Positions 5,715 through 64,000 of a stretch of 64,000 nt of DNA are shown piece by piece. The notes under the pieces are model-generated. The model worked only from the letters and a program-made list of their open reading frames with translations, was not told where the DNA came from and did not search any database. The stretch lies in the NCBI RefSeq assembly GCF_019112545.1, contig NW_025064896.1, positions 431,198 to 495,197 on the forward strand, given 5' to 3'. This DNA is from Guyanagaster necrorhizus (taxonomy: Eukaryota; Basidiomycota; Agaricomycetes; Agaricales; Physalacriaceae). Within the stretch, counting starts at the first letter, position 1. Every line of letters starts with the position of its first letter. The position numbers and the translations under genes were made by a program.

Positions 5715-7120
5715 TGATATGCAGGCTATATGTCCAGCTCTATAATTTGCAAATTCTGCATAACACACTAGAATATGCTAGTAACTGAGGATCATTAGCC
5801 AGTAGAGGACTATGGCTGAGGCTCCAAGCTGATAGTCATGCTAGTCACCAATACTAAGTCCAAATTGGACTTTGTAAAATAACATGGTCTAAGGATAAAA
5901 ATCCTAAGTCAGATTTGAACTTAGAAAAGTTCAGCACCACACCTTGGAAAATACTAAGTCCAAGTTGGACTTAGAAATGGTACCTCAAATGGGGCCAATT
6001 CTACATGCCACTAAGACAAGTATATTCTAACACAGCTAGAGGTATAATACCATAGCCAGTTGTGGAGTATTGAGTAGAGATAGCATCATTCAGGAGCAGT
6101 AAGAAGTGAGACCCAATGATCTGTGGCTAGCACTGTGAGTTTTGACTCAAATGCCTAAGTCCAAATTTTCTAGGTATCAGGTGACCTAAGGGACTTAGAA
6201 TTGAGAGGAATAGAGTGGATAGGACCGGTTGACTGGGTCTGATCGATTGAGCTACTAAGAATAACTCAGAGGATTAAAACTCTGAGTAGACAGAAAGGAG
6301 TTAGGTACTCACAGGCACTGTAGGCTTAAAATAAAGCTGTGCGGTGGCCAGGCGGGTCTGGGAAAGCCTAGAGGAGTCCAGGAGTGCTGTCATTCTGGAA
6401 TAATGGCATGATTCCGCTTTAAACAGGAGAAATATTATTTTGAATGCTTTATTTATAGATTCTATACCTGTTGTTGGTGTATAAAAGAAGGGAATGGGGG
6501 GAAAATAGCAAGCAAGCGACCCACCCCCGCATTCAGGCCTTCTAGCCCACTGTAGCTAGTCCCTGGGACAATGGATTTTGAGTTCTGCTTCGACTTAGTG
6601 ATTTATTTAAGTTGCTTTGTCACTTAGAGAGAGGATTGGATTGGAATAATAACTGTATTTTGGATTTTGGATTAATTTGGGTTCCAAACTATAAGGGTTT
6701 TGGCATCAGAATACAAGTTCTTTGGTTTTGAGGACTGCTAGCCTGCCAAGAGTGCAGCTAGTCAAGCCTAAGTGCTTGATAGACTTAGTATTTGGGTTTT
6801 GGGGTTCATTGGGTTTTGGAATATTCTAAGTTGATTTAGAGCGCAATTTGGCGTTCATTCTGAGTCCTAATTATACTTAAACATTGCTATAAACTACTCT
6901 CATGAGTATTGCATCTTTGAAAGCAAGATAGAGTTAAATAACTGTCTTTATTGACTGTTTCTTTGATTTTACTTAAGACTGCAAGAGTGCTTCTATTGTA
7001 CTCAAAACAACTAACCTCAACTGTATTTGGTGATTGTGTATTGAGTGGTTAGGTGTTGGTGTTTGAGAGTTCATTCCTCATTCACTTCTCTTAGTCACTT
7101 AGAAGTTACCAAGCACATCA
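5715..7120 (+). repeat. 1406-bp LTR-like unit, left arm of a large inverted repeat
   Basis: The unit begins TGATATGC and ends CACATCA, so it has TG...CA ends with a short inverted terminus (TGATRTG). Its reverse complement is at 7615-9020, the same length, with only a handful of differences seen, mostly transitions. It has no coding capacity. A TATA box (tataaaag, about 6480-6487) stands in the middle and a set of phased palindromes stands upstream of it, which fits a U3-R-U5 layout. It interrupts copy B between the protease (right) and RT (left). No clear target duplication was found. It is most likely a solo LTR of another retrotransposon family. Confidence 0.8.
5854..5974. promoter_or_regulatory. 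Three 21-bp palindromes at exact 50-bp spacing
   Basis: Palindromes with half-site CTAAGTCCAA start at 5854, 5904 and 5954. The third is perfect, the other two are slightly decayed. A related half-site starts at 6155, about 200 bp (four periods) further, and another pair of half-sites (cctaag, ggacttag) is near 6185-6200. The array lies about 500 bp upstream of the TATA box of the 1406-bp unit and is repeated in inverted orientation in the right arm. Dyad symmetry with fixed spacing suggests binding sites for a dimeric protein; the binding role is inference. Confidence 0.55.
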
Positions 7121-7614
7121 ATGGATTGCCCAAATGCATATTTCTTGTTGGATGTTGACTGCTAGGATGGTCTCTCCATCCTCCATCTCTTCATTCCACC
7201 AGTCATCAGGATCTTCATTGGGCAACTCAAAAGGGATTTTTCAGCATCTGCATCATGCAAAGGTTATCTTCCTGGTCTTCCAGTTGATCAGCAGATTGTG
7301 CCTGATCAGCCAGTCATATCCAAGGAAGACTTCTTTTGTGCCTTAGTCTGTGACTGCCAAGTTGATTCATTCCGAGTGATCCCTGATTGTGAGCCTAAGC
7401 TCTATGAATTCAGTGATTGAGCTGGCTTGATTTTTTGTTCCATCAGCATTGTAGATGGGGATTGGGGCAGCAGTAGCCCAGGTTGGGAGCTTGTGCTTGT
7501 CAATGAAAGCCTGGTTAATGGAACTCCCCATGCACCCACTGTCAATTAGTGTGGTTACTGTGTGGATAGAGTGAGCTATGAGAGTCTCGATCTGTGCTTT
7601 TGCAAGCAGGTCAT
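7121..7614 (-). pseudogene. Copy B gag-pol protease fragment (hairpin loop)
   Basis: This 494-bp spacer between the two inverted arms encodes, on the minus strand, the aspartic protease region of copy B: LIDSGCMGSSINQAF with the DSG active-site triad, then ELPNEDPDDWW toward the RT linker. It lines up with element D at about 41836-42300. It is continuous in gene order with the copy B RT on the left of the left arm, showing that the arm is an insertion in copy B. Confidence 0.8.
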
Positions 7615-9020
7615 TGATGTGCTTGGTAACAGCTAAGTGACTAAGAGAGGTGAATAAGGAATGAACTCTCAAACACCAACACCTAACCACTCAATACACA
7701 ATCACCAAATACAGTTGAGGTTAGTTGTTTTGAGTACAATAGAAGCACTCTTGCAGTCTTAAGTAAAATCAAAGAAACAGTCAATAAAGACAGTTATTTA
7801 ACTCTATCTTGCTTTCAAAGATGCAATACTCATGAGAGTAGTTTATAGCAATGTTTAAGTATAATTAGGACTCAGAATGAACGCCAAATTGCGCTCTAAA
7901 TCAACTTAGAATATTCCAAAACCCAATGAACCCCAAAACCCAAATACTAAGTCTATCAAGCACTTAGGCTTGACTAGCTGCACTCTTGGCAGGCTAGCAG
8001 TCCTCAAAACCAAAGAACTTGTATTCTGATGCCAAAACCCTTATAGTTTGGAACCCAAATTAATCCAAAATCCAAAATACAGTTATTATTCCAATCCAAT
8101 CCTCTCTCTAAGTGACAAAGCAACTTAAATAAATCACTAAGTCGAAGCAGAACTCAAAATCCATTGTCCCAGGGACTAGCTACAGTGGGCTAGAAGGCCT
8201 GAATGCGGGGGTGGGTCGCTTGCTTGCTATTTTCCCCCCATTCCCTTCTTTTATACACCAACAACAGGTATAGAATCTATAAATAAAGCATTCAAAATAA
8301 TATTTCTCCTGTTTAAAGCGGAATCATGCCATTATTCCAGAATGACAGCACTCCTGGACTCCTCTAGGCTTTCCCAGACCCGCCTGGCCACCGCACAGCT
8401 TTATTTTAAGCCTACAGTGCCTGTGAGTACCTAACTCCTTTCTGTCTACTCAGAGTTTTAATCCTCTGAGTTATTCTTAGTAGCTCAATCGATCAGACCC
8501 AGTCAACCGGTCCTATCCACTCTATTCCTCTCAATTCTAAGTCCCTTAGGTCACCTGATACCTAGAAAATTTGGACTTAGGCATTTGAGTCAAAACTCAC
8601 AGTGCTAGCCACAGATCATTGGATCCCACTTCTTACTGCTCCTGAATGATGCTATCTCTACTCAATACTCCACAACTGGCTATGGTATTATACCTCTAGC
8701 TGTGTTAGAATATACTTGTCTTAGTGGCATGTAGAATTGACCCCATTTGAGATACCATTTCTAAGTCCAACTTGGACTTAGTATTTTCCAAGGTGTGGTG
8801 CTGAACTTTTCTAAGTTCAAATCTGACTTAGGATTTTTATCCTTAGACCATGTTATTTTACAAAGTCCAATTTGGACTTAGTATTGGTGACTAGCATGAC
8901 TATCAGCTTGGAGCCTCAGCCATAGTCCTCTACTGGCTAATGATCCTCAGTTACTAGCATATTCTAGTGTGTTATGCAGAATTTGCAAATTATAGAGCTG
9001 GACATATAGCCTGCATATCA
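7615..9020 (-). repeat. 1406-bp LTR-like unit, right arm of the inverted repeat
   Basis: This is the reverse complement of 5715-7120. Seen differences include gtGGGATcc against gtGAGACcc and two sites near 8725-8755. The left edge abuts the copy B protease and the right edge abuts the integrase C-terminal tail of copy C, so this arm sits at a join between two different gypsy copies. The phased palindromes recur in the opposite order at about 8760-8880. Confidence 0.8.
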
Positions 9021-37662: not shown

Positions 37663-38101
37663 TGTTACGATTTTTTCCTATTTATTGTCTTTCACCCCTA
37701 TTTATGCTTAGTCAGAAGGCACCAGACTGTGAGAGGGCTTAGTCAGCACAACTAGGCTGTCCATCAATCATCTTAACAATCAAGCCCAATGATGATATAA
37801 ACACTCCTTTTATATATGGTAACGATACTCAAGGGCAACGAGTACCATAGACATAGACCAACACAATTAGTAGCGATATTATTAGATTTCTCTGTATAGT
37901 ATTTAAGACTGACAGCTCTCATTGGTATACCCCAGCTTCAAGCTAAAGTTTATATTCATACCATTCTACTCTCAAGCCATTCTGTGGCCTTGTGACACAA
38001 CAAGCCAAAGACACACATAAGTGGATTCAGGTGATCCCTCAAAGTGCGAAGGGACATCTGTCTATCATGTGTCCTGGATCACGTGATGCTTGGACTTAAC
38101 A
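37663..38101 (+). repeat. 5' LTR of element D
   Basis: Bounded by TGTTAC and TTAACA. It contains a TATA-like stretch (gtatagtatttaag, 37894-37907), and the likely transcript start is near 37934. It differs from the 3' LTR at about 35 positions by eye, all transitions. Confidence 0.95.
37894..37907 (+). promoter_or_regulatory. TATA-like element of the LTR promoter
   Basis: The sequence gtatagtatttaag lies 27-40 bases upstream of AGCTTCAAGCTAA (37934-37946). The same spacing is kept in the 3' LTR and, on the minus strand, in the solo LTR. This would place the RNA 5' end at or near the stretch complementary to the primer-binding site. Confidence 0.5.
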
Positions 38102-38115
38102 ATTAGCTCAAAGCT
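38102..38115 (+). promoter_or_regulatory. Primer-binding site, apparently self-priming
   Basis: The 14 bases after the LTR (ATTAGCTCAAAGCT) do not look like the 3' end complement of a tRNA, which would usually begin TGG. Instead TTAGCTCAAAGCT at 38103-38115 is complementary, apart from the central two-base CpG-derived site, to AGCTTCAAGCTAA at 37934-37946. With the intact CG seen in the 3' LTR (45596-45608) and the ancestral form of the site, pairing would be 13 of 13. This is the layout of self-primed elements such as Tf1. Confidence 0.7.
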
Positions 38116-45324: not shown

Positions 45325-45763
45325 TGTTATGATTTTTTCCTATTTATTGTCTTTCACCTCTATTTATACTTAGTCAGAAGGCACTAGACTATGAGAGGGC
45401 TTAGTCAGCACAACTAGGCCATCCATCAATCATCTCGACAATCAAGCCCAATGACGATATAAACACTCCTTTTATGTATGGTAACAATACTCAAGGGCAA
45501 CAAGTACTATGGACACAGACCAACACAATTAGTAGTGATATTATTAGATTCCTCTGTATAGTATTTAAGACCGACAGCTCTCACTGGTATACCCCAGCTT
45601 CGAGCTAAAGTTTATATTCATACCATTCTACTCTCGAGCCATTCTGTGGCCTTGTGACACAATGAGCTGAAGACACATATAAGTGGATTCAGGTGATCCC
45701 TCAAAGTGCAAAGGGATGTCTGTCTATCACGTGTCCCAGATCACATGATGCTTGGGCTTAACA
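45325..45763 (+). repeat. 3' LTR of element D
   Basis: 439 bp, TGTTAT to TTAACA. It retains the CpG in AGCTTCGAGCTAA (45596-45608) that is CA in the 5' LTR and TG on the primer-binding-site strand. It is followed by the CTTTT target duplication. Confidence 0.95.
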
Positions 45764-48000
45764 CTTTTTCTCTAGATGTCTTTCCACATGCTTGGTGAAA
45801 GTGGTTGAAAACATTAAATGTCTTTCTAACCAGTAGGACTGACAAAGTCTCAGTATCAGGAGATTATTCCTGCTCCACAACAAGTCCTGCTCCAAGATAT
45901 CAAAAATAGATCTCAATATTTTCTAATGGCTATCACTTAATGTTCAACCACACTCAAATATTCACTCAGTGTGAAAAAATAAGTTGTTAAGGAGCCACTG
46001 CATCTGGATTCATTAAGCCAGCCTCATCACAAGGTGATTACTCAGAATGCCTAACTTTGCCTATGCTCAAACATATAACAGAAAAATGCACAAAGCCACA
46101 AATATTCAACAACAATTGCAAACCAAAGATAGTCATGCATTTTCATTAGCTTCAGAGATGGATACAAAGTTGTCAGTGTACTGGATATTACTCATGATTT
46201 ACAGATGGATGATATAATCACTGCCTCAGAGGAGATCTGTGGCCAGCCACTAGCATCACAACATGACTCCTATTTTCATACTCAGCCTTGAGAAGATGTT
46301 TTCAGATGCAATCCTTTGACAAAGGTTGTATCAGACTTTCAGAAGTAGCTTACTGAGCTGAACTTAGATCTGCATGAAAAAAGCTGTTTCAAATGGATTA
46401 GATGTTTCAGAGGTCAGTCTGGAAGAACTGTTGTCTTATGAGGGTTAGAAGGCCTTACTGTTTCAAACCACCATCACTCTGAGAGTCTCCTCTGATCAGC
46501 ATCCTCATTGTGAGTACTTAAGTGCTTGTTCTCAAATCATATCTACTCAAATATTTGATATAGCATGATTACTCAGACAAGATGAATGAAGTGAGAGCTC
46601 AAGGCAGTGTTAACATTGACTACACTCGCCAATAGACTCCTATCCAAGATATTTGACCATGTCAATAAGAGGGACTTACTAGTTCTTGCATGCCTTTCTT
46701 GTAGACTGAATGCTATAGCAATCCATCACTTGCTTAGTCCATGGCATGAAATCTGAAAGAAGTACAGCACATTTAGGGTGTTTCCCACTAGTGCTTCTAA
46801 TGACTTCTCTGGCCTACACTACCTTAGGCTTTCCACAGAAAAACCATACATCTGATCAATGACTCTGATGTTCACCTTCTGTTTCATAGCAGACCTTGCT
46901 GATGTCCTACAATATCACAGGAGTATCCTCTGAAAACAGCATCCTAGTCTGCACATCAACTTCCCATCCTGTACTGAGCTATATATTGCATGGACTAGCA
47001 TGCATAGTGAGGACTGAGCAAGATGCTTTCACACATTCTGTGAACAGTTTGTCAGGTTATGATGTGTGTCCTTCAAGTACAGCACTGACTGGGAATCTCC
47101 CACCTTATTCAACCTACCACCATTCACCACTCTCACTTCCATGAACATCTCTCAGAGATCTGCATCCTTCATTGACTAGCTTGTCTGCTCAGCTTATATA
47201 TCACTCCTTGAATTATTGACACTAGAACATAACTATGATTTCAAGAAACCAGGGAATGATGTCATTGTGCTACACTTCTCTCATCTTAAACAAGTAACAT
47301 TTAGCTCATGCTTGTTTACAGCAGAGAAGTTATCTTTGTTTCTCTCTTGTTATACATCAATAACAGATTTGACATTCTTCTGTGGTGAAGTCTACTCACT
47401 GTCTTCATATTTACATGCTGCTCACTTACAACTTCCACATCTGCATACTATCACTATGGGCATCCAAAATTTGAAGAATATGCTGCCCTCTATGAGGCCA
47501 AAGTCCCTCCCCAGCCTAAAATCAGTCATGATACTTGGCTGCCAGCTGTGTATTTGTGCTAAGAAATTTTGCCAGGCAATGACACTTAAACAACTGGATA
47601 TTTATCATGTTCTATATTGGATATCATGATTACCAAATGTGTCCTGTGTGCAGCTCCCATTTGAATATGAATGAGAAACCATTTCAAGACTCACTTTACC
47701 AGGCATTATGAAAATGGTGCAATGCAAGATTCAGTGACTTTGAACTTGGAGAGGATCACACTGATTTCAGTGCTGTTTCCAAATGTGAGGGAGTTCAAGG
47801 TGATGCAGGTATTGGTGGAGGATAACAGAACATTGATGAGAGAGATAAATGAGTGCTGGCCAGGGCTATGATGCATGACAATTACTACAAAATGAACAGA
47901 TACTTCAGGACAATTCTAGTTACCTATGGCACAATTTTTTGAATTACTTTTTCTAACCATGTTTTTTAAAGGCTTAATTTATGGTATTCACTGGTCTTTT
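45764..48000. other. CpG-starved decayed DNA right of element D
   Basis: This continues the decayed block interrupted by element D. CpG returns sharply near 48000. The only protein-like content is the leucine-rich fragment at 47216-47871. The rest has broken frames and no recognised identity. Confidence 0.5.
47216..47871 (+). pseudogene. Relic of a leucine-rich, possibly F-box/LRR-type, protein
   Basis: A plus frame at 47216-47629 reads regular leucine-spaced units, for example LHTITMGIQNLKNML and LPSLKSVMILGCQLC, then a stop, and the sequence resumes at about 47671-47871 (VTLNLERITLISVLFPNVRE). The spacing resembles the LRR part of basidiomycete F-box proteins, a large gene family, but no F-box is seen upstream. 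CpG is depleted as in the neighbouring transposons, so the gene has been silenced and decayed together with them. The assignment is tentative. Confidence 0.4.
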
Positions 48001-48495
48001 GTGAGCGGTGCACTCTACTGTGTCTGCCCTCAATGCTGTATCTAGCAGGGTGATCCTTGCTGCCGGACCCATGATGAAAGGCTAACATTGTGTGATTGAG
48101 TTACAATCACTTAAAAATATTTCTCACTGGAAATACGAAACGTGTTCCCTGAATTTCTGGGCTAGATTGCGCCAACAATAGCTTCACTGACTACCGTCAT
48201 GACGAAGAAAATTGCACTGCATCAGATCATGGATAGTTCTAATTCTGAGAGTGATGATGACTCCTAGACGGAGAGAACTTGAAATAAAGGTTAAGCCCCT
48301 AGAAAGATGCTCTAATATGATAGCGTACCATAAAGGCAAGCCTATGTGACAAGGCCAGCAAGTTCTACCACATCACTTTGCATGGGTATGATTAAAGACT
48401 GAATAAAGGATGCACGGCGAGTATGAAGAGACCCCTCTGATCAATTGGCTCAAATTTGTTATTGATATTGATTTAAAAAAAGTAGTGACGTAGGA

Positions 48496-48740
48496 TCAGA
48501 TAGTCCTTTCGAGTGTCACGACATCGGAATAGTGTTCGAGATGGACATGAGAAATATTGAACTCGCGAATCCCAGCCTTGAGGTACTTGGTGCTAACGAG
48601 AAACTCCATGAGGTTGAGGATCCAAGGAGAAGCAAAGGGAGAATCCTACGAAACGAGTTAGAAAGCAAAAAAGATATGGGTTCATGTGACATACATAGCA
48701 TTCGGTGAAGACATGAATGTCAACCGACCCCCGCAGAAGA
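48496..48740 (-). CDS. Unrecognised gene, C-terminal exons
   Basis: Two exons join in frame over a 50-bp GT-AG intron (48646-48695): VDIHVFTECY then DSPFASPWILNLMEFLVSTK and IREFNISHVHLEHYSDVV to a TGA at 48496. The upstream exon runs to about 48740, where the frame closes, and another intron may precede it. The protein-like composition, normal CpG and clean splice suggest a real gene or a recent fragment. No family is recognised and no start could be set. Confidence 0.4.
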
Positions 48741-49071
48741 TCTCAGAGGAACAGTCGTCGATAGTACTCTCATTATAAGAACAGTGTTCTAGTGGACTCT
48801 TGGTGATCCAGTCAGCGCACCTGTCACGTACAAGAGGACTTGAGCTTCAGCTGAGTGCGAAGGCCCGCGACAAATTGCAGTAGGTATGGATACAAGATGC
48901 TGAGATCATCAAATCACCATCGGTAAGTCCCAGGTAAACGCATATCAGCGGATATAAGCAAATTTGCGGAAATGCAGGTCTATACAACGTCAGAAATGCA
49001 GCATAAGTAGGAAACTACAAGTATGCTTCTCTTGTCAAAACTCTCTACTTCATCTCTCATCAACACTACGA

Positions 49072-49242
49072 ATGGCATTTATCCAAATTGACGAGCTCAG
49101 AGAGTCCACCACCATCACGGTGCTCACCGTTGGCAACAGCATCCTCTATTACCTCATCATTGCTACCAAACTGGTCATTTTCTGCTCACTAATTAAGAAC
49201 TGTAGACGTCGAGGAATCCAGAAGCAACAAAATCGAGCCTAG
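49072..49242 (+). CDS. Possible 56-residue single-span membrane peptide
   Basis: The frame MAFIQIDELREST is followed by one hydrophobic segment (ITVLTVGNSILYYLIIATKL, residues about 14-33) and a basic tail (CRRRGIQKQQNRA). The frame stays open to about 48964 upstream, so this may be the last exon of a longer gene. No family is recognised. Confidence 0.25.
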   Translation: MAFIQIDELRESTTITVLTVGNSILYYLIIATKLVIFCSLIKNCRRRGIQKQQNRA

Positions 49243-49340
49243 TACTCTGTCAATCGTACTTTTAGTTCTTCTTGGTCTTTTTTTCTGTAGAGCGTTACAC
49301 TATGTGCATGGCGGAGGGCAACCAACTATGCTGGTCCCAT

Positions 49341-49530
49341 GTTCTTCTTGGTCTTAAAAGTGAGTTTGGAATGCTGTTCTCATTCTGAAAAGAAATAAAA
49401 AAAGAAGTTTTGTAGATATGCCTCGGTATTCAAACTGTGGTTCCCTTGGTCGACTACAATATATGCGCGTGAGGCACGAGCATGAACGGCGATCCTTCAC
49501 TAAGCCAGCTGGGGGCATGACGACGACTTC
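49341..49530. repeat. Dispersed repeat R1, CpG-retaining copy
   Basis: The sister of 36089-36276. CpGs are mostly intact here (cctcgg, gtcgac, gcgcgtg, aacggcgat). In the shared minus frame this copy has TAG and TGA where the decayed copy has two Trp codons, so neither encodes a full protein. About 75 bp to the left, a second ttcttcttggtctt motif occurs near 49265. Confidence 0.75.
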
Positions 49531-51187
49531 ACAAGCTTCTACATGCTCCAGTCTACCTCATATTTAAAAGATTAGTGAAGGAGGGCAGAAACAGCACCAA
49601 AGAATCGAACCAGGTTCAGCGGACTCAGTGTTCCAGTGACTTGCACCACGATGCCGTTGGTTTCACCTGTCGACTCCGAGCTGGTATCTCGCCATTGTCT
49701 CCATCGCTCTTAGCAACTACTTTGCTGTAGAGGACCCAGGAGATCAACAAGAGGAAGATACGCTCAACGCGAACTGGCGGCTCCTGATGCCGATAAGTAC
49801 AAGCACCCTGACAATGTCATCGCTATCAAGCACGTTCCCAACCAGCGCTGTTGGAGATTCAAAGGCGGCCATCGAAAAGTTTTGCTAAATGCTGTTTCTA
49901 TAGGCATTCAATTCATTCCTCGAAGCTTTGGAGGGCAGCAGCGACCTGTTTCTCAACACCAAGATTTAGGATTCAACATCAGTAGATGATTTATCATCCG
50001 TCCATTTAACTGGCCCCGGTTGACCAAAATTGTCCCCATTTCTGCGCAGTGTGGCTTTATGCATATACAATGAATAAATCGATATTGCATCACGACGAGA
50101 TCCCTCAACACATTTTACATCCAAATTCAAGATCGAACTTTAGAAATTTAGATACGTCGGGCATAACACAGCGATCGAATGCCGCAAAAATGCACTCCCT
50201 AGACTGCACTGTTCGAGGAAAACAACTAACTCCCACAAACAAGGCTACCACCAGGGTTCGAACCCGGAATTCTTAGTGGACACATAAGCCACACAGCGAC
50301 ACTTAAGACAAAGTATATGAAAGGAACAACCGTATTTTATTGTAAGCTCAGGTAAAGATCTCATTCGTGTCCATATCCCAAGTAAGTCGGAAGCAGCAAC
50401 GAGACTCGGAGTTGTAACGAAAAGAGAACTTCCAAACGAGAAATCTGCATGCTGTCGTTTTGGCATTCGACAGTGGTACCACGCCGGAGCTGTTGAGATG
50501 GAGCTAGGGTACACATTTAGTGGCCTTTCCGTCAGTTGCAAAGAAGGGCATAATCAGAATAAGGACAAAAAGGTGCAGTACAACTTCGGACGGTCAGTCT
50601 TCCCCGGCATTCTTGCTCCTCATTACAGGGGTATTCGTGTCAACGGGGACGCTCTGTCAGATACATTGTCTTGCAAGGTCGATGCTTACCTCTCCTTGCG
50701 AGGAAAATGGAAAAAGTACGATCCTCCGCCACAGCGCGACACTGGTAAGGGCAGTCGTAGCCTCGATGGCATACAAGGACGTCACTCCGAGGAAGACCTG
50801 TTGGGCGCGCGAAAGAAGCGACCAGTGCAATGCAGGAGAGCACAATGCACTTACTACGACTTGCGCGCCGATTGTTGGTGAGGCCGGCTTAACGGATACT
50901 GACGCAGCCCTGCGACGACCTATTTATCCGCGCCGAGACAATCTTTGGGTGTGCTTGAACATTAATGGATGACATTTAGATAACATCGAGAGGCACTTTT
51001 GGTACCTTTTTTTTTGGAGCAGGATTTGTTGCGACGCGGAAATAACCTCCCGGTACCGAGGATTTGCCAGTCCTACCTGTTAGAAAGGGGTTCAACTTCG
51101 TCATCCACTTTTGCCGAGCATGTGGAAAGACATCTAGAGGAAGAGCAATGCGCGCGCTTCTTCGTCGACGGTACGATTGACTTTCTC
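49531..51187. other. No supported gene
   Basis: Overlapping frames on both strands at 50498-50970 have no recognisable domain. Two tRNA B-box-like stretches on the minus strand (near 49604-49615 and 50258-50275) are discussed under rejected items. Confidence 0.4.
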
Positions 51188-52217
51188 TCAGAACCATCCA
51201 TTCCGCTGGCCGACAGCACTGCTGAAATTGAAAGGTACGTGCTGTAATAAGGAGGAGGCTTTTTCGAGATGTTGGAGGGCGTTTCTGGCATCAATAAGGG
51301 ACATCATTATTTTATCTACGTGGCGTTGAAGCTTGACATCGAGACCCCATTCCCAAGCAAAGTGCTGAAGGGCGTTCCTTGCAAATTCGACAGATGGAAT
51401 AGCGTGCATAATAATCCCACTGCATGCCTTGCCAAGGATCGATGTTAACATCCATATTGTCACAAGTATCATGACATCATTCTGGTGTGACTGCGCCCAC
51501 AAGGTCAGAGGAACCATGTTATACCGACCTGATATCTCTTGTGATGCGTCCGCAGCACGAGAATAGGTGTCATGGAGGGTCGATGGAATGTATTGGACGA
51601 TCAGAAGCAAGGATTGGCTGACAGAATTACGAGCACCGCCAAAGCAATGAGGATATCAGGCACTGAAATGATCAAATTAGCGAGCAAAAGAGAATCAGGA
51701 GATAAGAATCAACGAGATGATAACTTGCAGCCTAGTCCGAAATCAACAGTTCTGGATATCATAATGGATGTTTTCTCGACAATGACTTCGATCCCGCCAG
51801 GGCCTTGGAGCAGTGATTCGGCAAGTCCTGATGATGGTGGTGGTGGTCAAGCAATATCTGACGGATTTCATAACTTGGAGCTTACCTCGACTGAAACGAA
51901 CTACCGTTTGGTATATGATGGTCCGCTTTCTTGTAGTTTCCGGGGGCTGCGTTGGCAGCTTCCCATGCTACTCTTGCGGCTTCCAACCTTGGTATGTAGC
52001 TCAACTGCATTACTCATTACATGTAACGCACTGCCCCTTGCATCTGGTTGTCTAGCTCCTGCATCTGGCGCTCAAAAGTCTTCTCGTCTGTCGTTGACAA
52101 GTCCGATGCTGTTTCAAACTCGTCACTGGAGGCCGTCGAAGGTTCGGAAGGGCGTTGGTCACGAAACAGGAATAGAACGGACTTGAATTTCCTCTTTTGA
52201 CACACGGTTTTGCGTCA
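51188..52217 (-). CDS. Unrecognised protein, spliced, with a membrane segment
   Basis: The 3' frame (51610-51188) reads a hydrophobic segment NDVMILVTIWMLTSILGKAC and a helical tail rich in Leu and His. Upstream pieces on the same strand include FERQMQELDNQMQG (about 52030-52060), a coiled-coil-like helix, and PRLEAARVAWEAANAAPG (about 51940-51990), joined by a short putative intron. The likely start is the ATG near 52217, only about 65 bp from the divergent helicase start, so the two would share a promoter region. Exon joins are not settled and no family is recognised. Confidence 0.4.
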
Positions 52218-52281
52218 TGGCTGATGTTATCAGTAGCACCTTCTCTCTACGTTCACTCCGCTCACTCATCGACGGATAGCA

Positions 52282-55102
52282 ATGACGACGCCTACGCCCA
52301 AGAGAAAGCATCTCGAGATCATCCAGGTTCTCATCAGTCACCCCAACTACTACGGTATTCGAATCCGCCAGCACGTTGTGGATGAGACCTGTATCACGGA
52401 ACGGATGTTGGATATCTTCAGTACTGAGAGAGGGACTGGAGCCGAAAGGGCAGATCCGCTTGGGATATCGGTCGGGTACACCAAAGAAGGAAGGCTCGCC
52501 GCGTTGGCAGTTGCAGACAAAGAACGATGTTGCATTATCGAGTTTGCAAGTCTTCCACCACCTAACAGACAACAGAAGATGGAAATCTTGCAGAAACACG
52601 TACTCTGTCGTTCCATTGGCGAGCTCTATGCATTTGATGCTGCCAAGCTTGCGATGGTCCTGTGGTCAGAGCTCGGTGTGAAGGTCACGCGTGCCATCGA
52701 CATCCAGTCCGTCTTCACTGATACCGACTTCCCATCCGATCGCAAGCCTCTGTCTGCCATCCAGGCTTGTTTCGGTGACTCGGATAACTGCAAGCTGAAC
52801 GAGAAGAACATCGATCAAATCTTCAATGATCTCACATACAATTTTGAAGAGATCAGCCAGATGCGCACGGACATTCTTGGAAGAGCTTGGATTTCATGCA
52901 TACTTCCATCGCATGAAAACGGGATATCCACTTTCAGTACCGCAAAGCCCATCAATACCAGTGAGCTGAGTGGACAAGTGGGTGGCATCATGCCAGGTCT
53001 TCCATGCTGAACTGACAAATTCATTTACCTTTCTAGCTCCTGGATACACTGAATGTCTTAGCTCGCGTCTCAGAAGACTCCCGTCGTGTCAGCCACTTGA
53101 TGCCCACGGAGACAGATCATCAATTCTCTGATGCTCGAGCCTCAGCTGCCTCTATCGATGGAACATCCATTGATGCTCATGCCTCAGCATACAAGACCCG
53201 ATTTCACAAGTCTCAGGTATGCAATGAGATGGTTTCTACTAATTCTAGGCCTGACAATTCTTGTTATAGAATGTAATCACCACGTTTCAACTTGAATCAG
53301 GCGAGCAGATACAGCGCCGTGGACAGATCAGCTCTGTCGATGGAAAGTCAGCTACAGTCAACTTTGACACATCTGTTATGAGTGACAACAAGAATGTCAT
53401 CTCTATCATCAGTACAGATCGTGATCTGCCAACTTCAGCTGAAGGAAAACGTGATGGTTTTATCAGGCATATCTTACAGGGGGATCTTACCATCTTCAAA
53501 GACAACCCATGGATCTGCAATATACTGCTCTATCATGATACTATTGATAATGGTGCAGATCAATCCTCTCTTGAATGGCCTGGTAGTTGGTTTCCTTCCT
53601 CTCAACCAGATACTCAGATATCCACAGCCAGGCCATTATCTGATTGCAACCCTGCCTCTCACCATCTCAATGAATCCCAGCAACAAGCTCTTGATCATAT
53701 GCTTTCTTCATATCCTATTACTCTCATCCAAGGTCCACCTGGTACAGGCAAAACCTCAGTCATAGCTACATTTGTTCACCATGCTCTGGCTGAAGGAAAG
53801 TCTGGTATCTGGTTGATTGCACAATCAAATGTTGCTGTAAAGAATATTGCAGAGAAACTATTGCAGACTAATTTTACGGATTGGAAACTTTTGGTCTCTG
53901 AAGATTTTCATAATGACTGGTAATTTACTTCTCTTTCTGATTGTATCTACATCTTATTAAATGTTTATAGGCATGATAATCTTTATACTAAGATTCAGCA
54001 ACATATTATTCTCTCTACACAGTTCTGGAGGCTATCTGCAAAAAAACTACATGGATCTAGAGTCTTTCTTTGCACTCTCAGTATGCTTTCAAATCCACAT
54101 ATCTCCAGATTTACAGAAGTTGTTGCATTGAGATGTGCAGTGGTTGATGAAGCTAGTCAGATCAAAATAGCTGACTATCTCAATATCTTTATAGGATTTT
54201 CCTCCTTACGGAAGATATGCTTCATTGGAGATGATAAACAGTGTAAGTATTTTTTCTGGATTTTGCCTATTTTGCTTATTTGCTGCAGTACCACCATTTG
54301 GGACAGACAATGTTAACAATCTCAGAAGCATATTTGAGATAGATCATTTACGTGAAAATGCATTTTTACTCAATATCCAATGTATGTTTGTTTTGATTTT
54401 TAGACTGATTATTGACTTTCTCTTATAGATCGCATGCCTCCACAGTTAGGAGATTTTATATCTCAAGCAGTTTATAACAATGAGTTGAAGTCAAATCCGC
54501 TACATCCAATTCAAAATGACATTATTGCTTGTCATTTTGTTGATGTAATTGATGGTCAAGAACGACGGAGCACATCTCAGTCATTTACAGTAAGTTTATT
54601 TTATTTAAAATGATATATATTCATTTAATGCTATATAATTTAGAATGATGCTGAAGCAGCTGTTGCAATACAGCTTGCTCATTATCTTCAAGAACAACAG
54701 ATGTCATATAAGATAATTACACCATATGACAGTCAAAGAAACAAGATTCAAAAGGATATGTCAAAAGTAGATGGACTTGATTGGTATGATAAATGTTTCA
54801 ATGTTGATTCATTTCAAGGTTGAAATCTTCTATTCATACTAAAGCTATTCTAATATTTGCCTTTAGGAAATGAAGAAGATTACATTATCATCTCTCTTGT
54901 TCGATCTCGTTCAATTGGATTTCTCAAGAGCATGAGACGTACCAATGTAATGCTCACCCGATGCAAGAAAGGAATGTATATACTTACTAGTCGCTCTTTT
55001 ATTGATGGGGCTGGTGGAGATTCCTTGGCTGGAGAGTTAGCCAATCATATTGGAAAGAAGGCATGGCTGACTGTAGAGGATGTAATCCAAGGCAGGATTT
55101 AG
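52282..55102 (+). CDS. UPF1-like superfamily 1 RNA/DNA helicase, 820 aa
   Basis: Eight exons (52282-52977, 53037-53216, 53270-53919, 53971-54242, 54289-54381, 54429-54589, 54644-54818, 54867-55102) join in frame over seven GT-AG introns of 46-59 bp. The C-terminal half has the ordered SF1B motifs: GPPGTGKTSVI (I), IAQSNVAV (Ia), VVDEASQ (II), IGDDKQLPPFG (III), NIQYRMPPQLGDF (IV), DSFQGNEEDYIIISLVRS (V) and NVMLTRCKKGMYIL (VI). Such helicases act in RNA decay or RNA silencing (Upf1, Hrr1/SAD-3 and SDE3 groups). The N-terminal 230 residues have no zinc-binding CH domain; their pattern loosely recalls a degenerate 3'-5' exonuclease fold (AFDAAKLAMVLW, then RTDILGRAWISC). The 3' half is CpG-poor. 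Assignment to one group needs a tree. Confidence 0.9.
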
Positions 55103-55258
55103 GCAAAATAGCTATCCATTATAGAGGATGTTACCTCTAGTTTATCATTGGTATTTCAAAAACTTTATGTATTCATTCAAAAAATGAAGTTACTGAAATA
55201 TCAGTGATAAACTATAGATTTCATTGCTCTATCTTGATCTATACATCAAATAAGACAA

Positions 55259-57667
55259 TTATAAATGAGTCCTAGCAACATTTTCTGAATGTATATCTAA
55301 ACAAAAGATATTCTGCATACTTCTAAGAACATCAGCAAGAGTAGATATAAAAGCAGATGTAGATGTAAAAGAATTAGAAAATTTGGATTCAATCCCAAAC
55401 TTTATCATACTAGATCCAGCAAGATCTACATCCAGATGTGAATATGCTTTATCTGCAGAGATGTGTTATAAGCACTTACAGTTTATACCATAACCATCCT
55501 CATATATTGCACCAAATCTGATTGAGAGTCAAAGAGGAAGAGAAGTGGAATAACCAAGCAACATACCCTGTACCCCGAAAGAGGTGACCAGCACTAAGCC
55601 CACTTGTACATAGCTTCCAGCATGAACTCTGTCCAAATAATGGATCCTCAAAGAGTGGTGTATGTTCTCGAAGCTCTGGGCATAGCATCTGCCGTAGACC
55701 CATAAGATGGCGATCAATCCCTTTGCCTGTTGCAGCTTCGCGGGTTAATCTGGTATGTACTTTGATAGCTGACTCAAGTGCAGCGCGTTTGGATTCTGCC
55801 TGCAAGAAACTCAGCTACACCAGCACATGTGTATCTGGCATATATACCGTTACACGACCATCAACCATCGCCAAGCAGAATGCACGACTCTCTCGGGTCA
55901 GCGTCCGGATAGTTTCTGTGCGTCCTTTGTCGAACATCCGTGTCAGCGCAGTCTCATACGTCGCGGTGAATTGTCCCCGCATCTTGTACCATGTCACCTG
56001 CAGCGCCATCTGTATGAACGCGTCAGGAGCCAATTTCGCTGGCATCTCATCAGTACGCAAGAAAATAACACAATGAAAGATGCTCAAGTACCGGCTCCCT
56101 TGATCCAGTCTACCCCATAATCCGAGAACCAGAAAACACTATCATCCGAGTCCTCAATGATCCTCTCGGCACGTTTCTTCGCCATACCACACTCTTCCTT
56201 GATGAAGTCGTCGACAACCCAGTCTAGCCGGTCCCACCTCTGGCCTCGTGATGGAAGAGAGGAATCATTCTCGAAATGAGATTCATTGATACCTTGGATA
56301 ATTCCATACTCGGCGACAATGCTTGGAACTAACGCGTCGCATGGAGAGTGCTCGCCCACGGCGCCAGAACGCGCTGCGGGGTCAACGACGAGGGTGAAAG
56401 CTTTATCAAACCATCTGTTACCAACGTTGCTTGCTGTCGAACGAATGACATGGAGGTGGGAGTTGAAAGAATATTCTTTCGTTGATGGGTTCGGTGATGT
56501 AGGGTCTTCATAAATTTCGTTGTCAAGGCTCAGTACCATGAGCGAATTCGACAGTGTTGTGTGTACCATTTTGTTGGACTCAGAAAGAGCAAGAAGATGT
56601 TCGAAGTTCTAGGGCCAGCTATCAGAAAAGAATCCGCACAGTTCAAGGACGAATACGCACTTCTGACCATTTGTCACGATCATCCGCACTCAAAAGTCCG
56701 ATGGAAACCGGTTCTTCGCCATCGATCAGTCGCTGTTCAGCATCCGAAACAACAGCCTCTAGGTATCGCGCCAAATGGCCAACGTCCATCGAAACGGAAG
56801 GCGACTCCATGACAGAAACTCTGTAGAACCATCCATGTACCATAACTACGATGTTATAGGCGAATGGATCCGTCGGTAGAGGTACAGGTGATAAGACGTC
56901 GCAAGAATGCTTCGGTATCCGCGCAACGTTAAACATTTTTGATGTGCTTTCTCTTAGCCAGATACCTAGACCACTTCAGATTCCAAGGACACGACAGATA
57001 TCCACAAAGCACACCTGTCCGCGTAGTATCCGGGTATAACTCCTGCCTGAACTTCCTAAGCGAAAGTCGAGCTGGACCAATTAGAGGGTACGCACGTTTC
57101 AAGTTTGATTTTGAACTCCAATATTCGATGAAGCAACCAAGCCGCTCTCTTAATCTGCCATCTGGAGAACCCAGTCTTGAAGTGGCCATCTTGTCGTTCC
57201 TTCTCCGATACAGGAATGTTCGCATCGTCCTCGAAAGCAAGCCACCAATTAGAATTGATGAGCAACGGAGCTCTCCATTCCATATACGCGTTGTTCATCC
57301 AAAAATTGTCATCCAGCCAGTTGTTCGGAGATGCTCTGTCAAGTTCTCCAGACAAAATAAGAATGCGAGCGCATTTCAAAAGGAAGGAGACAAACGCACC
57401 CAGCAGTCTATCCTGACAGAGTTTTCCTACACCTGATGCAAATTCATCAGCCCACTGAGCACGAAGTCGACGAGACACATCGAGAGCATCATCATCCAGC
57501 CCTTTCTTGGAGGCATCTTCTAGCAAAAAGGGCTCTAAGGATGTTAGGTATTTGTCTAGCGTTTTACGGAGAGCAGGGACTGGTAGACGCAGCAGCGTAG
57601 GTGTCGTAGTGGTCATTTTTGGAGAGTATCGTCGAATATGGAGTGCAGACCGTGTAGGTAGCATCAT
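55259..57667 (-). CDS. CAT2: Carnitine O-acetyltransferase
   Basis: Eight exons on the minus strand (57667-57096, 57055-57006, 56965-56661, 56608-56092, 56038-55854, 55799-55567, 55517-55480, 55425-55259) give 688 residues. The enzyme moves acetyl groups between CoA and carnitine to carry them across mitochondrial and peroxisomal membranes. Family blocks in order: LPVPALRKTLDKYL, WLDDNFWMNNAYMEWRAPLL, MFNVARIP, WSENFEHLLALSESN, WFDKAFTLVVD, the catalytic-His box GEHSPCDA, KLAPDAFIQMALQ, IDRHLMGLRQML, and the carboxy-terminal GYGINYLAG with IKFGIESK. The N-terminus (MMLPTRSALHIRRYSP) looks like a mitochondrial presequence; a downstream Met (57616) could give a form without it. It converges on the helicase with a 156-bp gap. 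Confidence 0.9.
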
Positions 57668-58353
57668 TAAGGTCCTTGACGGAGAAACGAGGATTTCTAC
57701 GGCGAATGAGAGCAAATCATGACTGTACGACGTTGTTGGAGAGAGGAGGAAGCCGTTATCGGATCGCATCGGCCCGAATGGTGCTCCTGCAACGTCCCTC
57801 AGTCCTCTGCCTCTTCATTTCACCTGCCGATGTCGCTCGAGCACAGACAAAAGGACCCCCAAAAATGTTTTCCCGGCATATAATCCCGAGTTGAACTTGT
57901 CGTAGAGGTGCAGCAGGCAGACGCGTCTCACAGATACGTGCCAAAGAACGACAACACTTGCTCACTAAGGACTACAAGTCTGCTGTCCGTCTCCCACTGC
58001 ATCCTTTTATGGTGAGTCCCACTGTTTGGACGTCGCTCAGCTGCTCAAGCAACAACCTAAGTATATCAAGTGCAGATGCACCTCCCACATATTACACATC
58101 AGATCCAATCGAGTGATCCGCGAACGCAAAGACGCAAAGGTGGGAGGAGCACAACATTATAAGCGCATTCTATGTAGACGAAGAGATCACTATGATTGAT
58201 GAAAAAAGAGAAGTCGCTAGCAACTTTTCTGTTTCTTGATCAGAGCAGGTGACAATTCAGCACTTACAAACCGATGTGTATTGGCTTTAAATCCAAAAAT
58301 CCGAAAAATGTTCGATACGGACAATGCAGGAGAAAGACAGTACAATACTTATC
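57668..58353. other. Intergenic, no supported gene
   Basis: This is the upstream region of the carnitine acetyltransferase and downstream region of the coiled-coil gene. It contains only short frames; no RNA gene or repeat is seen. Confidence 0.5.
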
Positions 58354-59397
58354 TCACCATTTCCAAGCATGCTTTGACTTCTTCGGAGTCAATTCAACAA
58401 GCTTCACCTCGCGTTCTCTCTCGTCCACGCCAAACATAGTCCTCAAGCCATCGATCTCCTGTGACTTTGCTTGCATGCGCTCAGTAGCTTCACGAGCGTT
58501 GTTTCTGCTGATGTCAAGAGTCTCCGCCTCTGCCTGGAGCTGGGCCTGCGCCGTCTCGTACTTGGTGCGCGCCGCAAGGAAGGTGGCTTCGTTCTTCTGG
58601 AGAGTGGCAAGGGCTCGAGCATGGGCAGTGTGGGCTTGTGACTCGCGCCGTCGACGGAAGAATGACTTATCGTCAATAGAGCATAGTGCACGATACTACC
58701 TTTATGGCTGCTTTCTGTAAGCTCTGGAGCTCGGACAACTCTTGAATAGCCACTGCCAAAGCTTGCTTTTCGACCTTGCCTTCGGTTTTGATGACCTTGG
58801 AGAGACGTTCGTTGTCTTTTGCTGCAAAAGGCGATGTGAGTGCGCAGTCGTCTAGTAGATAATAAATGCACCTTCTGTCTTCTGGATTTTAGACAACTGC
58901 TTTGCAGACAACGATGCGTCGGCAGAGGCCGCTCTGTTGTGGAGGCTTTCGTCTGCTTCGGCTTTGGCATTTGGGCCAGTTGTTGCGGCACCGCCAATAA
59001 AGGTAGAACCGACTATAGGATTTCCATCGGGGTTGGTGAACACGCTCCGCTTGGAGACTGAGGCAGAGCGATATATTGAAGCTCCCCGATTTAGCGAGTC
59101 CTTGGGAATGAACGACGTGGAAGAGTGGATGGACGGTGCATTCTCTGCTTTGCGCAAGATGGGACCGGTATGAGTAGACGAGACGGATTGTTCGAGTAAA
59201 TCTGCAGCTGGAAGCCAACCTTCTGAACCGTTCGGATGAATCACCTTGCGACCCTTGTCTGGAACCTCAGCATCGCCGCCGTTGTATACGGTAGGGTCGA
59301 CCGTGAGTGGCTTGTCGAGAATTTGAGGCGGAGTGGACATGGGGGTGAGCGGTGCGTCAAAGTAGATGGACGAGGTTTCGCTGGAATGTGCAGGCAT
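58354..59397 (-). CDS. Coiled-coil protein, possibly Ncp1-like
   Basis: Three exons (59397-58872, 58821-58700, 58665-58354) give 319 residues. The N-terminal 175 residues are Ser/Pro-rich and contain HPNGSEGWLPAADLLEQS and a repeat-free linker with SVSKRSVFTNPDGNP. From about residue 165 a long charged helix runs to the end (LSKVIKTEGKVEKQALAVAI, QAQLQAEAETLDISRNNARE), a clear coiled coil. The tail is VKLVELTPKKSKHAWKW. Conserved fungal proteins with this layout have been labelled DNA-binding protein Ncp1; I recall that label but cannot verify it. The second intron is only 34 bp, so that join is less certain. Confidence 0.7.
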
Positions 59398-59448
59398 GTA
59401 AGAGAACGATGTGGAATAGTGATGTCATATTACATTTACAACTTTCCT

Positions 59449-60279
59449 CTACAAGATCTTGGCAATCTCAGCATCAATACTCTCCGGAGTCGTCGTCGAC
59501 GCCCACCGATGCACGACCTTGCCCTCCTTGTTGACGAGGAATTTTTCAAAGTTCCACTGTCCCATCATGAGAAGATCACCAGTAACCTAGAGTCAAAACT
59601 CCCACCTTGATCCTGGTAAGCCCCAAAAGACCAGCCTTTTCATTCTTCAGCCACTTGTACACCTCATTGGTATTGTCGCCATTCACATCCGATTTCTTCA
59701 TCAGGGGGAAAGTGACACCGTGGTTCCTGGAGCAGAATTCACCAATGGCTTCGTCGTCTTTAGGCTCCTGCCCACCAAACTTTTGAGAAACGTCAACTGC
59801 GTGAATCTCCCTCGTAAACTCGATGGAGCGCATACCTGATTGCATGGGAAACCAAGGATGACAAAGTCGCGGTCCTTGTACTTGTCATACAACCCTTGAA
59901 GACCTACAGGAACATTAGATCTGGTTTCTTTTGTAACGGACTAAAGAAACCGCACCTGTGTATTGGGGGGTAAATCCACTATGCACGGTTTGTGAACAAC
60001 GAGAACAAGTATCCAATCTTGGGATAAATACCATTTTGATGCCGTATTGACGATCAGGATAGTCTTTCCTTGCAGCTCCGCAAAGTCATACGTTTTGTTA
60101 CCAGGCAGCGTCGCCTTGAGCGAGTAGAAGCCAGATTCAGTAGACAGGTATCGAGTTGGGTAGGTGAAGAGAGATGATACTGGTGCAAGTCGTGGTAAAG
60201 TGCTACGATGATGAGAGCAGGACGATCTCAAAGCAATAAATAGAGTCGGTTTGCTGATGAATCCTCGAGGCGTGATCAT
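59449..60279 (-). CDS. GPX: Glutathione peroxidase-like thiol peroxidase, mitochondrial
   Basis: Five exons (60279-60032, 59978-59956, 59903-59836, 59779-59606, 59556-59449) give 206 residues. One exon is only 23 bp and carries the active-site stretch. The peroxidase triad is visible: Cys in [11 protein letters not shown], Gln in FGGQEP and Trp in KWNFEKF. The active residue is a normal TGT Cys, so it is a Cys-type enzyme that reduces hydroperoxides, usually with thioredoxin. LGFPCNQ carries a likely resolving Cys nearby. The first 50 residues are basic and hydroxylated, ending RYLSTESGF, typical of a mitochondrial presequence. No in-frame Met follows it before the core, so a cytosolic form from this gene is unlikely. 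Confidence 0.92.
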
Positions 60280-60366
60280 AGCTGTGAAATCCTTGAAATT
60301 CCCGGTTGTAACAATTGCCGGATCTATGTAATCGGCCCGAACCTAGTCTCCGCCATCCCGGGATCT

Positions 60367-62012
60367 CTAGTAGGCTATCTGCTCCACGCTCCCAAGCCCT
60401 TCAGCGAACAGCCCACGGAACCGCTTCCTACATCGGGAGCCCTTCAGTCTGCCTATATCACCACGAAGCTCCTTTAGAACCCAAGCATACCCTCTCGGCT
60501 TGCGTAAGAGAACAGTATAGAATGCATTACAGCCGAGCCTAGTTATGGTTAATGACTGACGTCGCGAATAAGAAACAACTAACCAGTCGACCTCGGCCTT
60601 GTTCACGGTAATTTTCGCATCGAGACTCTTGGCCACGTGTGTTCGCGACGTGTTTCGGAACGACGCATAGAAGTACGCGATCATCTGCTTTACGGTACCT
60701 GGGGACCGAAATTAGGATGGAATCACGATAGGTAAAATAAAGATACGTACGATAGACCATTTTTCCGCGCTTAGATGAGTCTATACCCCACTCACTAATG
60801 TATCCATGCATCTTCATGGCGCTCAAAACAAAGTTCTGATAAACATTCAGATGCACGACACGCTCCGAGTTCAGTTTATGGTCAAAGAAAATAACATGAA
60901 TGCGTCTTTTGGTCAGTCTGTACCGGACGTGCCAGCTTATGAATATCATACTGGATGGGACATACTGGAGCATCTTATACACAAAAGCAGATCCTGGTCG
61001 CCGTATCTTGTTGACCGTTAAAGTATTGCGCAAATCTGAAATATTTTCAGTCTTTGAACGGTTCAAAGAATGCCGTCACGACTTACGGACGTCGTGATAT
61101 CGGGCATAATCACCAGACACAGACAGATGTTTCATGTTGATTGCATAACCACACCACAGGAAAGCTAGGAAAGTTTGAGAAAAACACGAAGATGGACAGG
61201 ATGTGCTCGCTTACATTGTTGATGAGGATTAGTCACATTCAAAACGTGATGACCATAGTCAAAGTTCGTCATCGTTTTTTCTTTCGATATGAAGCAACCA
61301 TACTCCGGGTGGCCTATCCAACATTGAAAAGAAAGAATGACACTTTGACAGAATATGTACCTTCGTTCATCATGCAGAGAAATTCCCTCGCATGGGTCAA
61401 GGAAACGGTGATCAACAAATAATCATCAGTTTGTCTAAGCAATACCTATGAGGACCACGTCAACACACGTTCAACCCGCCACCGAGATAAAACATACGCT
61501 TTGGGGATCCTCCGTAAACTGCTTAAACCTCTTCTCAAGGTCGCCATAGAAAAACGCACAGAGAATAGAGGAGAGAACCGAACCCTGCGGAATCCCAAAC
61601 ACCTGTCGATAATAGTCCTGTCCAATCTACATCGAGCAACAAGTCACGATACAATTTCAGGGATTATTACTGGAACTGACCTTGACAATATTTTCCGTGA
61701 TATGTTGCTCAAGCAAGTCCCATATTTCGTGCCGTTTAGACCGAGGGTAAACCACCTACTCTGGTGAAAATCCAGGCTTATAGATACGAGATGAAGTTTT
61801 ACCTGATCAACAAAAATCGTATGCCGCAAGGCCCCCGCGAGCTGCGTGGCGTACTCAAGAAAATGTGGACGAGCGTCTGAGATAGTTATCAATCCAGGGG
61901 AAAAAATCGACGAGTGTGAGTCACCTGCGGGAAGAGCCTCCTTGGCAAACCTACGCTTGATTTTGCCTGCGGTAGAGGACACCTTGCCGTATCTTTGGTA
62001 CACATAATTTTC
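60367..62012 (-). pseudogene. TERT: Telomerase reverse transcriptase, C-terminal half only (5'-truncated)
   Basis: Ten exons (62012-61925, 61876-61803, 61755-61681, 61626-61498, 61445-61361, 61313-61215, 61164-61087, 61035-60751, 60698-60584, 60538-60367) join without a stop into 399 residues. Recognisable TERT motifs: the segment after motif A (ENYVYQRYGKVSSTAGKIKR), motif B' (GIPQGSVLSS then FFYGDLE), motif C (RQTDDYLLIT, two catalytic Asp), motif D (GHPEYGCFISKEKT), motif E (LWCGYAINMK), and the C-terminal extension (VYQNFVLSAMKMHGY, then NKAEVDWLGCNAF). The TEN domain, RNA-binding domain and motifs 1, 2 and A, which should lie upstream, are absent from 62013-62347, and the Dicer gene begins there. 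Without motif A it cannot polymerise. The first exon begins at a good 3' splice site. Confidence 0.88.
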
Positions 62013-62347
62013 CTACATCGCGCGCTGAGACATGATAGTGGTGGTGGTTGCTGCACGCACACCCTGTCTCATGGGATCATTTATTTTTCCAGTCACCATT
62101 TCGTCAACGCCCTTTCCAAGGATAACGATGCGCCAATATCAGGTGCAGCAGGCGTCGTTTACTCTTTGCTTGTCACCTCGAGATCCATGATTGATAATAT
62201 TATATTATTTTTTAAATAATTCAAAATAATTTAGTGTAAAAAACGCCTGCTTTCTCACTATCGGTTACAAAGGGAGAATTAGTCTTAAACAAATCAACAA
62301 AAGGTAAACGGAGCATACAAGGACGTAAAAGAAATAAGATTATCTAT
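62013..62347. other. Breakpoint spacer between TERT fragment and Dicer
   Basis: A minus-strand frame without TERT similarity (VILGKGVDEMVTGKINDPMR) occupies 62020-62140, followed by an AT-rich stretch near 62185-62245. None of the missing TERT exons is found on either strand. Confidence 0.6.
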
Positions 62348-64000
62348 CTAATCTACGTGGAGCAATTTTATAGCATCTTCAGCGGCGGCAAATTTAACTT
62401 CCAGCTTTGTGACGCGGCCTCTGTTAAGGTCAGTTGCCCGTGCTTCCTCCAATGCCTTCACATCCTCTCCCTCCTCCTGATGCAACTCGATCACACAACT
62501 GATATTACCCTTCTCTTCCGTAAACTTATACTTCACTTTCTGTCCTCGTCGTGAAGCCCAGACCGATAGTCGCGAAACAGGATGAAGCACATCAACGCTG
62601 TCCTTGACGATGCGCTCCAGTATCGGCAAGATACCAATCGTTCGCATAACATCCCGCGTCCTCTCCAGGTTCCCCTCCGAGTCAAGGAATACGGCGCCAA
62701 GGAGACTCTCGATCATGTCACTGAAGAATTTGGGTGCCTGCAGACGAGTCAGCGCTGCCCAAGGATAGATCTTCCCATTCTCCAAACCATCAGCAATCGC
62801 ACCCGAAAGCCTCTGAAACCTGTCAAACGTGACACGCTGATCCTCGAGAACACGAGGACTGGCATGCAACAGGCACTTCCACAGATATATGTCCTCCTCC
62901 TCCTCTTCTAGCTGAATCTGACCCCCCGATTCCGTGGGCCGAGGCATATAGCTGCAAACCTTCACAGAACACTTCAAGCATAGGTAGGCCAGAATATGCC
63001 CGTTCACGACAGCCGATTTCCGAAGGTGCATATGCCCAGGACTGTACTGCTTGCCTTCTGCACGATATAGATAATCCGTGACCACCATGTCCATGACGGC
63101 GTCACCGAGGAATTCCATACGTTCATAAGAGATCGTGCCGAAGTCCTGCTGATGACTCGAGTGTGTGAGGGCTTCGAGAAGGATGAGCTTGTGTCTAAAC
63201 TCGTAGCCCAGCATGGATTCCACTTGAGACATGACCTTCTCCGGCAATTCGATGCGCTTTCTGACTTCGGGTTCGATTACACTGACCCTTTCAATCAAGG
63301 ACGAGATGCGCTCCGCAGTTGGTTGCCAGGTAAGGTCTAGACGGAAGAACTTTGCACATTCATAACCTAGTTCGAACCCTCCGTGCAGATACGCAGCGCC
63401 AATCGTGGATTCGACAACATCCGCCAATACTGAATAACATGAAGTACAGATTAAAGCATGAAGCTACACGGCACAATGTCCATACCTTTCATGGAGAGCT
63501 CTCCCGCAACCTTTTTTGCCCGCTTTTTCTTGGCCTCGTTCTTCGTGGGAACGGTTGTAACGACCTCAGCTACTTTATTCTCGCGGATAGTTGTGTTGGA
63601 ATGCATATACGCTGGCTTCCACTTCTTGCTAAGCAACCGATCTAAACGTAAACGGGTCAATATGGCAGTCTCATATGGCTTCGAACCAACCTCGGATAAT
63701 CCATCTGAACATTTCTCTAGATATGTTCTCATTCGCCAGTCTAACGTTCGCAACGGCATGGTCCTTCCGCCTCGACAGGTATCCTTCGTGCCACAGTGGG
63801 TGTTGCGATAGAAGCTGTATGCTGACCAGGTACTTCAGCACCGTATCTCCTAGCGTCTCCAAGCGCTGATAATTGTGACGTTCTTGAGACAACGGGGCTG
63901 TCATAGCAACAGTCAACAGCTGCGGTGAAATGGCGTAAAGATGAGATGACGGAGTGAACATCCTATCCCGCATGGACTGAACAGTAAGTGACATAGCTAG
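62348..64000 (-). CDS. DCL: Dicer-like ribonuclease, C-terminal part (RNase IIIa and IIIb)
   Basis: The gene runs in from the right edge of the window (exons to 63691, 63641-63486, 63429-62348), with introns of 49 and 56 bp. RNase IIIa is near 63750-63930 (NYQRLETLGDTVLKYLVS) and RNase IIIb starts with YERMEFLGDAVMDMVV and ends with the second acidic site in KFFSDMIESLLGAVFLDS. Each domain keeps the Glu-x-x-Gly-Asp and later Asp/Glu residues that bind the metal ions. A run of Glu (LEEEEEDI) inside IIIb looks like a lineage-specific loop. The last 70 residues may be a weak dsRNA-binding fold. Dicers cut dsRNA into siRNA for silencing. The helicase and PAZ parts lie beyond the window. Confidence 0.92.

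Follow-up and report, generated by a model that had tools for sequence, protein, structure and literature searches.

The telomerase reverse transcriptase (TERT) gene is usually present as a single copy. Among the papers listed by a literature search, none described a truncated fungal TERT, though this says little about whether such reports exist. The closest described systems come from plants: truncated TERT-like copies or TERT pseudogenes are described from Nicotiana (TERT_D), Amborella, Vigna radiata, Populus, and Mimulus (PMC7916837). Here, we analyzed a window of DNA from an agaric fungus (the whole stretch of 64,000 nucleotides, C17:431198–495197) and searched its 53.3-Mb, 109-contig assembly. 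The genome carries one complete TERT, on contig C3, and one C-terminal half, in the window. We put the probability at roughly 0.83 that this half arose by partial duplication from C3 into C17 and has been kept as a passenger.

The truncated gene occupies 62012–60367 on the minus strand and covers the protein from the residue after motif A through the stop codon. In our exon model it comprises 11 exons (62012–61925, 61876–61803, 61755–61681, 61626–61498, 61445–61361, 61313–61215, 61164–61087, 61035–60966, 60917–60751, 60698–60584, and 60538–60367) encoding 383 amino acids in an open frame, with GT/AG borders at every intron. Pfam comparison of the protein recovered TERT_C (PF21399; 3e-13, over the cut-off), which is the C-terminal extension, together with the C-terminal part of RVT_1, and the protein aligns with residues 739–1097 of human TERT (E 6.7e-34); both comparisons were run on a 399-aa version in which a 48-nt intron was read through. 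Alignments to human and fungal TERTs show GIPQGS and TDD in this half, corresponding to motifs B′ and C; motifs D and E are present as well. These results bear out the sequence-only reading that a genuine, stop-free C-terminal TERT half with intact splice sites is present, and they amend its count of ten exons: the exon it had placed at 61035–60751 contains the 48-nt intron (60965–60918, minus strand), which it had taken as coding. This segment appears as an insertion relative to human TERT and as 16 extra residues relative to all 12 of the 12 aligned fungal TERTs, and since a good donor and acceptor flank the 48 nt, we count eleven exons and 383 residues.

The C3 gene model has 27 exons and encodes 1116 amino acids without an internal stop. 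DNA of the C-terminal half occurs at exactly two places in the genome, the window (100%) and C3:1172827–1174479 (99%), and all 14 exon matches of the 383-aa protein fall at these two places only. A domain scan of the N-terminal half of the C3 protein, made on a slightly earlier model, detected the TEN domain (PF11474) and the RNA-binding domain (TRBD). Searching the genome for another TERT and for the missing N-terminal exons, as had been proposed from the sequence of the window, located both on C3 as a complete gene. Among the matches listed, no protein exceeds 60% identity to this TERT. The C3 model requires one GC-AG intron (C3:1170369), which may be non-canonical or may reflect a damaged donor site; we treat it, putatively, as the former. 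At one position C3 has an in-frame TGA and the window TGG. We considered whether the full-length gene carries a nonsense mutation, which would leave the only intact C-terminus in the window, and rejected this because the codon lies inside the 48-nt intron (the equivalent of 60918–60965), where it is harmless.

Window positions 52167–62030 match C3:1182668–1172809 in inverted orientation over 9,866 columns at 97.9% identity; the alignment contains 200 mismatches and indels at three places (3, 3, and 2 bases). At 9.86 kb, 97.9% identity, and two places in the genome, this block counts as a segmental duplication by the usual definition (≥1 kb, ≥90% identity, few copies), and it is the only match common to 100 kb of C3 and 124 kb of C17 (the latter reads N in part). 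On the TERT side the breakpoint falls at 62030/62031, within the intron before the first exon of the half: on C3 the motif-A exon is followed by an intron of 51 bp, of which C17 keeps just the final 18 bp (62013–62030, minus strand). The far edge lies ~115 bp before the ORF start of a helicase-like gene. Judged by eye against the usual criteria for each, neither a target-site duplication nor a Helitron-like 3′ end was seen at the block edges. Divergence per 500 bp is about 0.8–1.2% over TERT and part of the neighboring glutathione peroxidase (GPX) gene and 2.8–4.6% over the helicase end, and the TERT part of the block holds 16 differences in 1,671 bp (about 1%). On the TERT strand, the substitutions that separate the two copies of the block are asymmetric, with C17 G opposite C3 A at 57 positions versus 29 in reverse (binomial p 0.003) and C17 T opposite C3 C at 50 versus 23 (binomial p 0.002).

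Upstream of the breakpoint, the N-terminal parts of TERT are absent from the window copy, as the sequence-only reading had claimed. A genome-wide profile search with the TRBD profile (PF12009) matched only C3:1171780–1172137, in two exon matches, and gave none at the window half. The half likewise lacks motifs 1, 2, and A, and with them the first catalytic aspartate; the exons for these motifs end at C3:1172775, before the block edge, and the 1,480 bp directly before the break (C3:1171327–1172806), which hold TRBD and these three motifs, have no second match in the genome. The TEN domain exons lie upstream in the C3 gene, outside the duplicated block. With neither the RNA-binding domain nor the aspartate of motif A, the window half should make no telomerase. 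An Rfam search of the whole window returned no match.

The block carries four further genes. GPX (59449–60279, minus strand) has five exons, open in both copies, and four amino-acid differences between C17 and C3; polarized against Armillaria and other relatives, one of these is derived on C17, one on C3, and two are ambiguous. Among the matches listed, GPX is closest to Armillaria (92% over 79%). It is followed by a gene without a Pfam match (58357–59424, minus strand; two ORF stretches, open in both copies), a carnitine acyltransferase gene (56084–57814, minus strand; two ORF stretches), and the helicase-like gene (52237–54316, plus strand), in which AAA_11 was found in ORF 53270–53923 and to which the adjoining ORFs are provisionally assigned. 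We computed pN/pS for TERT and these four neighbors. The helicase-like ORFs (52282–53920) differ from the others, with values of 0.87 and 1.62 (24 of 32 and 17 of 20 changes non-synonymous), and therefore look relaxed or fast evolving.

TERT and GPX have consecutive locus tags, under their database names, in Marasmius oreades, Collybiopsis confluens, and Psilocybe cf. subviscida, which argues that the C3 arrangement is ancestral. The tags are two apart in Volvariella, and they are not consecutive in Fibroporia (4 apart), Amanita polypyramis (7), or Amanita phalloides (11), which counts against an ancestral pair. Since C3 has the complete gene and the TERT–GPX adjacency appears old, C17 would be the derived place. 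Five TERT-like database proteins (P0047, P0051, P0067, P0071, and P0122) also contain a GSHPx domain; these are probably fused gene models of neighbors and, together with the consecutive tags in three mushrooms, suggest that TERT–GPX is an old gene pair often mis-annotated as a fusion.

Between C17 and C3, the C-terminal half differs at 10 exonic positions (of 1,152 bp) and at 6 intronic ones (of 512 bp). Five of the exonic changes are synonymous and five non-synonymous, giving a pN/pS of 0.28, a value below the expectation for one wholly neutral copy but based on far too few changes to separate constraint from youth. The five residues that differ all occupy positions variable among 12 other TERTs; with none at a conserved column, polarization gave no direction. 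The undamaged frame had been read as meaning that the event is recent or the half still under selection. That inference is weak: at ~1% divergence, undamaged copies are to be expected from chance alone, and five changes against five cannot tell the two apart, so that intact frames are no proof of selection. In the ~318-bp spacer upstream, 7 ATG-to-GT combinations would join exon 1 in frame, compared with a mean of 4.8 in 1,000 shuffles; 24.9% of shuffles reach as many, which is chance level.

Beyond the spacer (62031–62347), the window contains the 3′ part of a Dicer gene that runs past the window end (62348–64000, minus strand; domains shown on the C30 copy). The Dicer gene had been said to begin 336 bp upstream of the TERT half, and it is in fact its 3′ end that lies there, with the stop codon at 62350–62348 on the same strand. 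Dicer occurs in three copies about 96% identical (the window, C30:218656–220298, and C17:377357–378981). Over 1,653 aligned columns, the window copy has 49 private differences versus 23 and 25 in the other two, and its 3′ flank differs from the one that those two have in common. With window 61833–64000 as query, the spacer has no second copy in the genome, a 38-bp match aside. On the other side of the block, beyond 52167, lie pieces of a dispersed family 71–90% identical to sequences on C20, C42, C5, and other contigs, with LTR-like pairs further left. Window 46100–51210 consists of such pieces, whose long matches (81–88%) lie on C42 and C20 and whose shorter matches lie on further contigs. 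Direct repeats of 442 bp (37663–38104 and 45325–45766), 91.9% identical and 7.7 kb apart, resemble the LTRs of one element, in a stretch that holds many segments 66–70% similar, and an inverted repeat of 1,409 bp (5715–7123 and 7612–9020) is 99.4% identical around a 488-bp loop. The half-gene thus sits amid a mosaic of duplications and repeats that would be a plausible site for such an insertion.

Under the partial duplication that we favor, a 9.86-kb piece of the ancestral TERT neighborhood on C3 would have been copied into C17 beside the Dicer gene, inverted in contig coordinates, with copying presumably running from C3 to C17 and joining perhaps achieved by end-joining or template switching. 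With one edge of the piece inside a TERT intron, C17 would have received the 3′ end of that intron and the 11 downstream exons. The resulting half, probably without a promoter or start codon of its own, would persist as a passenger beside intact neighbors such as the GPX copy, its open frames reflecting youth. Partial duplication was one of the options raised by the sequence-only reading, and it is the one supported by the complete TERT on C3 and by the position of the half at the edge of the duplicated block; another such option, that the window has half of a TERT that was split or rearranged, conflicts with a C3 gene that is continuous and open. A third, an assembly join, would mean that part of the TERT haplotype from the second nucleus of a dikaryon was misplaced into C17. 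Divergence of this degree can occur between the nuclei of a single fungus, and the 97.9% identity fits such a source. We nevertheless consider a join unlikely: it requires misjoins at both block ends, and as the C3 and C17 stretches compared have the block alone in common (with part of C17 reading N), there is no shared long repeat to explain them. Furthermore, a second haplotype is not generally retained around these places. The 8.8 kb left of C3 TERT have no second near-98% copy (six other matches of 79–88% lie within parts of the last 2.5 kb), the 8.4 kb of C3 from the far block edge on have no near-identical second copy (three short matches of 58–100 bp, one of them the block edge), and 9 kb of C17 starting 10 kb right of the window gave one 277-bp match at 82% and no ~98% copy; the pre-break TERT stretch is equally without one. 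Since the flanks tested lack a second ~98% copy, the block is, at these places, a discrete duplication rather than part of a generally retained second haplotype.

A functional C-terminal half, in which a new 5′ exon, Dicer read-through, or an internal ATG yields a thumb-domain polypeptide under selection, would agree with the 11 open exons and their GT/AG sites, with the low pN/pS, and with the confinement of the amino-acid differences to variable columns. However, recency predicts the same pattern, start and donor combinations in the spacer are at chance level, and without the RNA-binding domain and motif A there can be no catalysis, and we regard this reading as highly improbable. It would be far-fetched, in our estimation, that the C17 half is transcribed (through a new 5′ exon in the spacer or Dicer read-through) and that a thumb polypeptide or an RNA modulates full TERT in trans, making the fragment a telomerase regulator; the RNA in such a scheme would be antisense to nothing and identical in parts to TERT mRNA. 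We give next to no credence to a split telomerase with N-terminal and C-terminal halves acting in trans: the TGA on C3 where the window has TGG would point that way, but it falls within the 48-nt intron, and the 27 exons of the C3 gene include a C-terminal half of its own. The C17 half-gene is most likely a recent, non-catalytic passenger of the duplication.

With a whole gene elsewhere in the assembly, the puzzle of a fungus with half a telomerase gene is removed. A truncated copy of this kind would be called TERT in annotation and lead to a wrong TERT copy number, and a young truncated fungal copy could show how a fragment of an essential single-copy gene decays. C-terminal-only TERT annotations such as P0123 (Leucoagaricus gongylophorus, 365 aa) combine RVT_1 and TERT_C without TRBD in their precomputed domains, as does the half described here. 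The locus also resembles young segmental duplications whose edge truncates a gene, being longer than 1 kb, more than 90% identical, and low in copy number, with a breakpoint in an intron; the sole difference is the gene concerned, TERT. As for the plant TERT copies (PMC7916837), an extra partial or truncated TERT exists besides a complete gene, and a neighbor was carried along in the duplication (MtATPO in the plant case, GPX here). In that account, premature stops interrupt TERT_D of Nicotiana, and the fragment in Amborella comes from the N-terminal side (PMC7916837), whereas here a fungus holds a C-terminal half within a precise 9.86-kb block, its frames still undamaged. This looks like an ordinary partial duplication of the same kind as the plant truncated TERT copies, in a fungus.
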